Positions 16,034 to 18,797 of a stretch of DNA of 42,208 nucleotides are shown in pieces. A program made the position numbers and the translations under genes. Source of the DNA: Sphingobacteriaceae bacterium (GTDB lineage: Bacteria; Bacteroidota; Bacteroidia; Sphingobacteriales; Sphingobacteriaceae); contig JAHEGO010000008.1 of assembly GCA_024645045.1 (NCBI GenBank), positions 1 to 42,208 of the forward strand, given 5' to 3'. The notes under the pieces are model-generated. The model had not been told where the DNA came from. It saw nothing but the letters and a program-made list of their open reading frames with translations, and ran no database searches. The stretch's first letter is position 1; each line of letters opens with the position of its first letter.

Positions 16034-16567
16034 TTATGCTTGTTTGGTAAATTCAACATTGATATTTAACCTAACGTCTTCGCTAACTACCATTCCACCA
16101 GCCTCTGTAAGTGCATTCCATACTAAGCCATATGCTGTTCTGTTTATTTTTCCACTTACTTCAAATCCTGCTTTAGTTTGTCCCCATGGGTCAACAACTA
16201 CACCGCCAAATTCAACAGCAAGTTCAATTGCTTTGGTAATTCCTTTAATAGTTAAGTCGCCTTTTAAAATGTAATCACTTCCTTCTTTTTTAGTAAATGA
16301 AGTTGATTGAAAAGTCATTTTTGGAAAATTTTCTGTATCGAAAAAATCTGCTGATTTTAAATGACCATCTCTTTGTTCGTTATTGGTATCGATACTGTTG
16401 GTATCAATAGCAAATGAAACAGATCCATTTTCAAAATCATCTCCGTTAGTAGATAATTCACCTTCAAACATTTTAAATGTCCCAGATGTAGTAGAGATCA
16501 CTAAGTGTTTTACTTTAAATTGTACTTCTGAATGTGTGGCATCTAATGCCCATTTAGTATTGTTCAT
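16034..16567 (-). CDS. YceI-family polyisoprenoid-binding lipocalin-like protein
   Basis: YceI proteins are single-domain lipocalin-like barrels that bind isoprenoid lipids; many are induced by stress or acid. The 177-residue product begins with MNNTKWALDATHSEVQFKVK, the typical family start, and contains the segments SADFFDTENFPKMTF and GDLTIKGITKAIEL in the expected order. There is no signal peptide, so it is predicted to be cytoplasmic. I chose the ATG at 16567: a TTG 27 bases further upstream falls inside the -7 promoter box and would lie before the expected transcript start. It is monocistronic, with its own promoter and a large palindrome upstream. Confidence 0.92.
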   Translation of the reverse strand: MNNTKWALDATHSEVQFKVKHLVISTTSGTFKMFEGELSTNGDDFENGSVSFAIDTNSIDTNNEQRDGHLKSADFFDTENFPKMTFQSTSFTKKEGSDYILKGDLTIKGITKAIELAVEFGGVVVDPWGQTKAGFEVSGKINRTAYGLVWNALTEAGGMVVSEDVRLNINVEFTKQA

Positions 16568-16591: not shown

Positions 16592-16599
16592 CAAAGATA
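16592..16599 (-). promoter_or_regulatory. -7 promoter box (TATCTTTG) of yceI
   Basis: On the minus strand the bases read TATCTTTG, an exact match to TAnnTTTG. It lies 25 bases upstream of the ATG at 16567, giving a leader of about 20 bases. No TTG is present at the -33 position; instead that region is filled by a large palindrome, which suggests dependence on, or blocking by, a DNA-binding regulator. Confidence 0.75.
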
Positions 16600-16632
16600 A
16601 TTATAATATGTGTTTAAACATATATTATAATT
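16599..16632. promoter_or_regulatory. 34-base near-perfect palindrome at the yceI promoter (putative operator)
   Basis: The two 17-base arms (16599-16615 and 16616-16632) meet without a loop at TGTTTAAACA and differ at a single pair (G16610 against T16621). One end abuts the -7 box of yceI and the rest covers the -33 region. The exact two-fold symmetry, the lack of a hairpin loop and the placement fit a binding site for a dimeric regulator. The regulator is not encoded next to it. Confidence 0.7.
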
Positions 16633-16636
16633 TAAA

Positions 16637-16677
16637 TATAGCTCATAAAAAGTATAAAATACTGATTATGAGCTATA
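16637..16677 (-). terminator. Hairpin after the prolyl oligopeptidase gene, probable terminator
   Basis: TATAGCTCATAA at 16637-16648 pairs perfectly with TTATGAGCTATA at 16666-16677. Inside lies a second stem, AGTAT (16651-16655) with ATACT (16659-16663) around AAA. The element starts 6 bases after the stop of the prolyl oligopeptidase gene as read on the minus strand. The downstream T tract is weak (TATTTAAATTATAAT), so efficiency is uncertain. Confidence 0.6.
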
Positions 16678-16682
16678 AAAAA

Positions 16683-18797
16683 TTAAAGACTTATGCCTAA
16701 ATGTTGAAATACAAATGACCAAACATCTGCTGCTTCCTCAATTATTTTTGAAGTAGGTTTGCCAGCACCATGTCCTGCTTTCGAATCTATGCGAATTAAA
16801 ATAGGATTTTCACCCTGTTGGTTGGCTTGTAAGGTAGCAGCAAACTTAAAAGAATGTGCTGGTACTACACGGTCATCATGATCTGCGGTGGTAATTAATG
16901 TTGCAGGATAATTACTTTGTTTAATATTATGTAATGGAGAATATTTAATCAAGTAATTGAATTGAGATTGATTTTCGCTTGAACCATATTCAACAGCCCA
17001 GCCCCAACCAATAGTGAATTTATGATAGCGTAACATATCTAATACGCCAACACCAGGTAATGCCACTTTATACAAGTCTGGTCTTTGTGTCATGCAAGCG
17101 CCAACCAATAAGCCTCCATTTGAACGACCATTGATGGCAAGTTTCTCGCTGCTGGTATATTTTTCTTTTATCAAAAATTCCGCAGCACCAATAAAGTCGT
17201 CAAATACATTTTGTTTATTTGCAAGCATTCCTGCTTTATGCCACTCTTCACCAAATTCACCGCCGCCACGTAAGCTAACCTGGGCGTATATTCCACCCTT
17301 TTCTAAGAAATATAAATTAGATACACTAAAGGTTGGTGTTAAACTAATATTGAATCCTCCATATCCATAAAGTAATAATGGATTCTGGCCGTCTAATTTA
17401 ATTCCTTTTTTATGTACAATAAACATTGGAACTTTTGTTCCGTCTTTTGAATCAAACCAAACTTGATTTGTTTCATAATTATCGGTGTTAATTTTGAAAG
17501 CAGATTTTTTATATAATTCGATTTTGCCAGTAGGGATATCTAAATTATAAATAGTTCCTGGTGTAGTAAAATTAGTAAAACTGAAATAAAAATTATTCTC
17601 ATTATTACTTGCTTCAGCAAGTGTAATAGTTCCTATGCCAGGTAATTCAATGTCTTTTATTTTTTTACCATCTACTGAATATTCGCTTAATTGATTACTT
17701 GCATTTTTCAAGTAAGTAGCATATAACCTACCACCTACAGTGCTTACAGACTGTAATAAGTCTTTTTGTTCTGGTATAATAGTTTTCCAGTTTTGTTTTT
17801 GACTGTTAGCTGGATTAATAGCAACTACTTTATAATTAGGAGCGTCTTGGTCCATTAAGACTAGCAAGTCCTCATCTATGTTATCAATTACCTCAAAGTT
17901 GTTTTTAAAGCCTTTTAAAAGCGTAATTAACTTTGCGTTTTTATCTTTTAAATTTTTTACTAAAATTTCGTTTCCAGATGTACCTTCCGAAGCAGAAATA
18001 ATTAAGTAGTTTTCATTTTCTGTTACCGCTGCTCCAAAATATCTAAGCGGATGCGCCTTGTCTTCATAAATCAATTCATCATTTTTTTGATCTTGACCTA
18101 ATTGGTGAAAATATACTTTTTGAAATTGATTTTGATTAGAGAATTCACTCACCCCTTTAGGGGCGTCATAACGGCTATAGTAGAAGCCATCGCCTTTCCA
18201 GGCTGCGCCAGAAAATTTCACCCATTCAATTTTATCTTTTGTTAATTGTTGAGTAGCTACATCAATTACATATATTTCATTCCAATCGGAACCTGATCTT
18301 GCAATTGCATAAGCAGCATATTTAAAATCGTTAGAAAATGTTAAACTAACCAATGCAACCGTTCCATCGTTGGATAATTTATTAGGGTCTAAAAAAACTT
18401 TTTCAGCTCCATCAATCCCTTTTTTATAATAAATAACGGATTGATTTTGCAAGCCATCATTTTTTGAGAAAAAATAATAGTTTCCTTTTTTATAAGGAGC
18501 AGTTTCTTTTGCATAATTCCATATTTCAGTTAATTCGTCTTTTATTTTTGACCTAAATGGAATTTGAGATAAATAGTTTTGTGTAACTGTATTTTGGGCT
18601 GTTACCCAGTCTGCTGTTTCCTTTGTGGTGTCATTTTCCAGCCAACGGTAAGGGTCTGCAATGGTTTGACCGAAATAATTGTCAGTCACTGAATCTTTTT
18701 TTGTTTCTGGATAGGGCATAAGGTTAATTTTAGTATCATTCATTTTGCAGCCATTGATTAAGATAATAGCAGAAAAAATAAGTAAGACATTTTTCAT
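16683..18797 (-). CDS. Prolyl oligopeptidase family serine peptidase (S9A), lipoprotein
   Basis: Prolyl oligopeptidases cut short peptides after proline. The 704-residue product has a lipoprotein signal (lipobox INGC, Cys17), an N-terminal segment PYRWLEND at about 50-57 typical of S9A, a seven-bladed propeller (about 80-420) and the alpha/beta hydrolase domain. The catalytic Ser is near 559 in NGRSNGG, the Asp is in DHDDRV near 640, and the His is near 676 in AGHGAGKP. All three are intact, so the enzyme should be active in the periplasm or at the inner face of the outer membrane. It follows gldB by 10 bases and is probably cotranscribed. Peptide scavenging is the likely role; a link to gliding is not shown. 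Confidence 0.94.
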   Translation of the reverse strand: MKNVLLIFSAIILINGCKMNDTKINLMPYPETKKDSVTDNYFGQTIADPYRWLENDTTKETADWVTAQNTVTQNYLSQIPFRSKIKDELTEIWNYAKETAPYKKGNYYFFSKNDGLQNQSVIYYKKGIDGAEKVFLDPNKLSNDGTVALVSLTFSNDFKYAAYAIARSGSDWNEIYVIDVATQQLTKDKIEWVKFSGAAWKGDGFYYSRYDAPKGVSEFSNQNQFQKVYFHQLGQDQKNDELIYEDKAHPLRYFGAAVTENENYLIISASEGTSGNEILVKNLKDKNAKLITLLKGFKNNFEVIDNIDEDLLVLMDQDAPNYKVVAINPANSQKQNWKTIIPEQKDLLQSVSTVGGRLYATYLKNASNQLSEYSVDGKKIKDIELPGIGTITLAEASNNENNFYFSFTNFTTPGTIYNLDIPTGKIELYKKSAFKINTDNYETNQVWFDSKDGTKVPMFIVHKKGIKLDGQNPLLLYGYGGFNISLTPTFSVSNLYFLEKGGIYAQVSLRGGGEFGEEWHKAGMLANKQNVFDDFIGAAEFLIKEKYTSSEKLAINGRSNGGLLVGACMTQRPDLYKVALPGVGVLDMLRYHKFTIGWGWAVEYGSSENQSQFNYLIKYSPLHNIKQSNYPATLITTADHDDRVVPAHSFKFAATLQANQQGENPILIRIDSKAGHGAGKPTSKIIEEAADVWSFVFQHLGISL

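Follow-up and report, generated by a model that had tools for sequence, protein, structure and literature searches.

The palindrome in front of the yceI gene of a Sphingobacteriaceae bacterium is, with a probability of about 0.78, the operator of a MarR repressor that governs a quinone/electrophile-type regulon, with ATGT-N4-ACAT as its core. The palindrome is conserved, is shared by the promoters of several other genes and is linked to marR genes, from which we infer binding, repression and type of ligand. As the position of the palindrome indicates, a MarR dimer bound to it would block RNA polymerase by covering -33 of the yceI promoter. In this genome the repressor would most likely be the sole MarR protein that exceeds the Pfam cut-off (G000:C5:32755-33198), relatives of which are often encoded beside yceI or pirin, with the same or variant sites. 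A quinone or another electrophile would be the likely releasing signal, since in the wider family the site stands at yceI and at genes for nitroreductase, VOC-superfamily proteins, pirin, LigB dioxygenase and FMN reductase.

The analysed stretch of 42,208 nucleotides (hereafter the window) encodes on its minus strand yceI (16034..16567), a YceI-family protein of 177 aa (PF04264, E 2.7e-51). As start we took the ATG at 16567, not the TTG at 16594 of the mechanical ORF list. The palindrome (16599..16632, no strand assigned) is 34 nt long and consists of the proposed operator and AT-rich extensions; its arms AATTATAATATGTGTTT and AAACATATATTATAATT meet without a loop and with one mismatched pair, and one half-site is imperfect (ATGTTTAAACAC). 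The conserved core TGTTTAAACA lies at 16611..16620, likewise without strand. The box TATCTTTG (16592..16599, strand -), which we take to be a -7 box of the Bacteroidota type according to the promoter consensus (-7 motif, -33 TTG), abuts the palindrome, and the expected position of the -33 element coincides with the palindrome centre, where no TTG occurs. Thus the two 17-base arms with one mismatch and no loop, the adjoining -7 box and the -33 region devoid of TTG, all described by the sequence-only reading, are indeed present. Besides this palindrome the window has just one other, at 2189, that lacks a loop and is matched at 16 or more of the 17 arm positions, and comparable palindromes appeared in none of 300 Markov-1 resamplings of the window and in none of 3000 of the local 400 nt. 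The palindrome at 2189, also near-perfect, is followed by a T run and looks like a terminator.

That a dimer on the site would cover -33 speaks for repression, and a palindrome of some 16-20 bp that overlaps its target promoter, as found here, is what characterizes a MarR-type operator. The extent of the site was estimated from an alignment of 60 yceI promoters, the window included, most of which were picked with an 18-mer such that the inner nine positions are ascertained. Arm pairing is raised up to approximately position 13 from the centre and at background beyond; positions 14-17 are AT-rich and not conserved. No second separate core was found within 40 nt of the window site either, hence the earlier proposal that the long arms could accommodate two dimers is not supported. 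A TAnnTTTG box is found downstream of the palindrome centre in 44 of the 60 promoters and starts 13-16 nt after the centre in 31.

Screening 60 relatives with the YceI protein gave matches in 57, and 29 ortholog loci were fetched besides the window's own; since L009 has too little upstream DNA, 28 are testable. TGTTTAAACA is present within 130 nt upstream in 12 of these 28, with a shuffle mean of 0.03 and a maximum of 1, and two further loci (L021 and L030) have one-mismatch versions of ATGTTTAAACAT. The search of relatives that had been proposed from the sequence thus recovers the core at yceI and, as an 18-mer, the site in 55 of 301 family genomes. In the five genomes of the same genus the ortholog search identified only a distant YceI paralog. 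The yceI promoters of L014, L018, L025 and L026 lack the palindrome; a gene for a regulator with a cyclic-nucleotide-binding domain (Crp/Fnr-type) lies just upstream of yceI in the first three and an HxlR-like regulator gene (named by eye) lies beside it in L026. The yceI promoters of genus g13 also lack the palindrome and have a common TTAnCATACATCAAT-type block instead, in MarR-positive and MarR-negative genomes alike. This different block, together with the Crp/Fnr-type gene next to yceI in L014, L018 and L025, suggests that the regulator of yceI has been swapped at these loci.

Which other genes carry the site was determined with a 13-mer and then with an 18-mer. The 13-mer ACATGTTTAAACA gave 33 listed matches in the 60 relatives versus 12 for the reversed control, which means that some of the 33 are chance. 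Several are intragenic; yceI aside, the genes at the others include a secreted paralog of yceI, two pirins, an old yellow enzyme, one nitroreductase and one LigB dioxygenase. The 18-mer TACATGTTTAAACATNTA, chosen after inspection of the 13-mer promoters and containing TGTTTAAACA by construction, was searched in 301 family genomes and occurs at 67 places in 55 of them, versus none for the reversed control. These 67 distinct places were counted by eye and all were read, L067 and L068 being taken from the 13-mer search; they were classified by BLAST against representatives, and gene names were assigned by Pfam using one representative each. The downstream gene is yceI, cytosolic or secreted, in 47 cases, a nitroreductase in eight, a VOC-superfamily gene in five, a pirin in one and a LigB gene in one, which leaves five without assignment. 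Six places were already known from the 13-mer search (L067, L068, L135, L136, L144 and L145), and the 61 new ones consist of 43 yceI, eight nitroreductase, five VOC and five other sites. The VOC-superfamily genes are of the glyoxalase/dioxygenase type, and four of the five sites are divergent from a GTPase-like gene; the LigB gene scores above the cut-off of a 4,5-DOPA-extradiol-dioxygenase model. Among the five unassigned sites, L207 precedes an NADPH-dependent FMN reductase, L218 an NAD(P)-binding-type protein and L230 (G138) what by eye is a yceI with a broken reading frame behind an intact operator; L216 and L217, both of genus g16, have the site but no regulon gene.

The suggestion that the site could mark a regulon is therefore supported for the family, with 67 sites in 55 of 301 genomes in front of several unrelated gene types. 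The same recurrence of one sequence at promoters of unrelated genes agrees with the earlier view of a DNA site for a dimeric protein rather than an RNA hairpin. The target set suggests quinone or electrophile chemistry rather than acid or lipid stress.

Within the window's own genome the picture is less extensive. The 12-mer ATGTTTAAACAT with at most one mismatch occurs at 16 places versus 12 for its reversed control, so that the extra sites are weak and a wider regulon in this genome is unsupported. Notable intergenic sites are that of the window, L112, 96 nt before an ECF sigma-factor gene, and L110, 26 nt before an ABC transporter gene. The ECF sigma-factor site is kept in four of five same-genus genomes (L045-L048), about 95 nt before the gene. 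At L112 and L045-L048 the palindrome lies upstream of the likely promoter and does not overlap it.

The candidate regulator has 148 aa and matches both PF01047 (MarR) and PF12802 (MarR_2) above the curated cut-offs, which gives it the winged-helix domain of MarR proteins. Regulators in this genome were counted as MarR_2 matches in an assembly that is 95.6% complete; there are three, of which just one, the candidate, exceeds the curated Pfam cut-off. It is encoded on another contig, consistent with the earlier remark that the regulator gene is not beside yceI. A match to the candidate was found in 52 of the 60 relatives; larger relatives have several MarRs. The marR gene of this genome has no palindrome upstream. 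Autoregulation was considered and rejected: 51 marR loci were covered, of which L073 was unparsed and 50 were read, and none of the 46 that belong to the window's family has TGTTTAAACA. The sole TGTTTAAACA match among the 50 is in the yceI-marR operon of G050. In the window's family marR has no palindrome and is mostly flanked by an exonuclease-like gene on one side and a ZIP-transporter-like or phosphatase-like one on the other, as named by eye.

Site and candidate regulator tend to co-occur. Of the 55 genomes with the site, 53 have a MarR homolog (E<=1e-20), compared with 174 of the 246 that lack the site (Fisher p 1.8e-5). Among 36 closer genomes the 13-mer site is found in 16 of the 26 whose MarR scores 130 bits or more, a threshold set by eye, versus one of the ten without such a MarR (p 0.008); both tests are confounded by genus, since g13 has no site with or without MarR. 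In that genus (30 loci, L242 unparsed, MarR-negative status being absence from the MarR match list) the site with at most one mismatch was found at the best yceI ortholog in none of 15 MarR-positive and none of 14 readable MarR-negative genomes; at a single MarR-negative locus there is a match with two mismatches.

It is unlikely that the operator serves another regulator of the same genes, such as HxlR, TetR, Crp/Fnr or a MarR of another orthogroup. This would explain the two site-bearing genomes that lack the candidate MarR at E<=1e-20, G028 (85% complete) and G232 (99%), where none of five fetched stretches with weaker MarR_2 matches matches the candidate. It would also fit the Crp/Fnr-type and HxlR-like genes beside yceI in L014, L018, L025 and L026, but precisely these promoters lack the palindrome and those of g13 have their own block. 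MarRs of other orthogroups were tried as binders as well, and TGTTTAAACA is absent from the 11 loci read (L197 left out). A further argument against another regulator is that the same palindrome, or a variant of ATGT-N4-ACAT, is present at yceI-marR operons of other lineages.

Nine relatives have the gene for their match to the candidate beside a yceI gene (L115-L123). ATGT-N4-ACAT was found at the loci of G050, G043 and G051, that of G050 being ATGTTTAAACAT; G047 has a TTTGTATATACAAA palindrome adjoining ATGTTTATACAT, and G009 a one-mismatch TTGTTTAAACAT between marR and yceI. For the loci of G033, G037, G046 and G049 the scan printed no site. A profile search of named genomes gave at least 592 candidate stretches, the best 80 of which were kept and 77 could be classified: YceI is encoded within two genes of marR in 50, pirin or nitroreductase in seven and neither in 20. 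The motif ATGT-N4-ACAT, selected after viewing the promoter of L268, lies at most 150 nt upstream in 40 of the 50 YceI-adjacent, six of the seven other-regulon and four of the 20 remaining loci from these best 80 of at least 592, with shuffle means of 0.48 (maximum 3), 0.06 and 0.05, respectively. The half-site-swapped control gave one among the same 50 YceI-adjacent loci, ten of which, including sister row L304, lack the motif. In the Cyclobacteriaceae locus L268 the yceI-marR operon is preceded by AATTACATGTTTAAACATGTAATT, which has the same core palindrome. A regulator encoded beside a target with which it shares the site is therefore seen in relatives (50 of 77 YceI-adjacent, 40 of these 50 with site, best 80 of at least 592) and is absent in the window's own genome.

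In a phylogeny built on few columns and with long outgroup branches, as the program warned, the 46 MarRs of the window's family and four named rows, Solitalea and Mucilaginibacter included, form one clade (99/89) that lies amid yceI-linked MarRs. The Solitalea and Mucilaginibacter rows within it suggest Sphingobacteriaceae as the source of the window. The sister row of the clade is a Chitinophaga protein likewise linked to yceI (L304, 97/77), itself without the site; the wider branch has support of 98/92. Two rows, L314 (labelled cyanobacterium, with yceI) and L316 (labelled Thalassobius), carry this otherwise mostly Bacteroidota-type MarR, and their contigs may have been wrongly binned.

In many marR-linked promoters of other lineages (among L268-L347) the ATGT-N4-ACAT site is paired with a second one at a distance of exactly 15 bp: in 46 loci with 73 perfect sites, 28 of the sites have a second site (at least 7/8) at -15 and 22 at +15. 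This exact spacing suggests joint binding of two MarR dimers at these promoters, whereas a single core is present in the window.

That the palindrome acts as an RNA hairpin, either as terminator of the upstream gene or as yceI leader structure, is very improbable. A fold of -8.5 kcal/mol (z -3.5) is possible for the strand, and the codirectional upstream gene, prolyl-oligopeptidase-like by eye (16683..18797, strand -), ends some 50 nt away. That gene, however, already has a separate and stronger terminator-like hairpin at its 3' side (16637..16677, strand -, -18.5 kcal/mol), located between it and the yceI operator, although the consensus terminator scan does not list it. Being located upstream of the -7-like box, the palindrome should be outside the yceI transcript, Rfam gave no match up to E 1, and what is conserved at the promoters of unrelated genes is sequence, beyond mere pairing. 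A functionless AT-rich palindrome that arose by chance might account for the unconserved outermost positions, but for the core this is contradicted by the shuffle controls and by conservation in other genera, and its probability is negligible.

It is fairly probable, at a confidence below that for the operator itself, that a phylum-wide regulon under a YceI-linked MarR with operator ATGT-N4-ACAT joins YceI, an isoprenoid/quinone-binding lipocalin-like protein, to quinone-detoxifying enzymes; that in one family the repressor gene moved to the exonuclease-ZIP transporter-like locus while the operators stayed; and that the site is present at an ECF sigma-factor gene as well in the genus of the window. 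Among the open-access PMC titles listed none concerned a Bacteroidota YceI-MarR regulon, which is weak evidence of absence. Because one operator is common to yceI, nitroreductases, VOC-superfamily genes, LigB dioxygenases, pirin and old yellow enzyme, a testable role can be proposed for YceI, the handling of quinones or other reactive lipophilic compounds; for Bacteroidota a candidate regulator becomes available, together with its proposed binding motif and a list of targets. A passage of PMC5350466 describes YceI proteins as widespread and of unclear physiological role.

Among known systems, MhqR of B. subtilis and S. aureus is similar in several respects. The MhqR passages of PMC6798810 describe a MarR-family repressor with a palindromic 9-9 bp operator, a regulon of nitroreductase, quinone reductase and ring-cleavage dioxygenases, and sensing apparently without a thiol switch. 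Genes of this target type are found at the 67 family sites, namely eight nitroreductases, five VOC-superfamily genes, one LigB gene and one FMN reductase. The operator is different, an inverted repeat of the TATCTCGAA type in those passages versus ATGT-N4-ACAT with core ATGTTTAAACAT here, as is its position, which is -6 to +12 in S. aureus (PMC6798810) and over -33 in the window; YceI and pirin are absent from the target description in the same passages. The NCBIfam matches of the candidate include no MhqR model, though NCBIfam may have none. Given the differing operator and the absence of YceI and pirin from the MhqR passages of PMC6798810, the site is filed as a MarR operator and regulon, not as MhqR.

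QsrR and YodB, quinone sensors of the MarR/DUF24 type, also have quinone reductase, nitroreductase and dioxygenase targets according to the pertinent passages of PMC6798810. They differ in having a conserved sensing cysteine (same passages), none being invariant across the 12 aligned MarRs here, and the Pfam listing of the candidate contains MarR and MarR_2 but not HxlR/DUF24. BmoR of Bacteroides fragilis is, in the excerpt of PMC6158253, a Bacteroidota MarR repressor tied to redox genes; unlike the system described here its operator has TTTCC inverted repeats, it is autoregulated and acts directly on the gene of a CoA-disulfide-reductase-type oxidoreductase with which it shares an operon (PMC6158253, same excerpt). 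The closest solved structure by sequence is PDB 3u2r (E 2.6e-26, residues 11-148 of the profile), a sequence relative deposited as 'Regulatory protein MarR', the entry listing of which mentions neither target nor ligand. MgxR (Bxe_B3018) of Burkholderia xenovorans, compared by its description in the relevant part of PMC4349456 alone, where protein family and operator are not stated, resembles the proposed repressor in that it responds to an electrophile, methylglyoxal, and the same part of that paper discusses bxe_B3019, the next locus number, a YceI-family gene.
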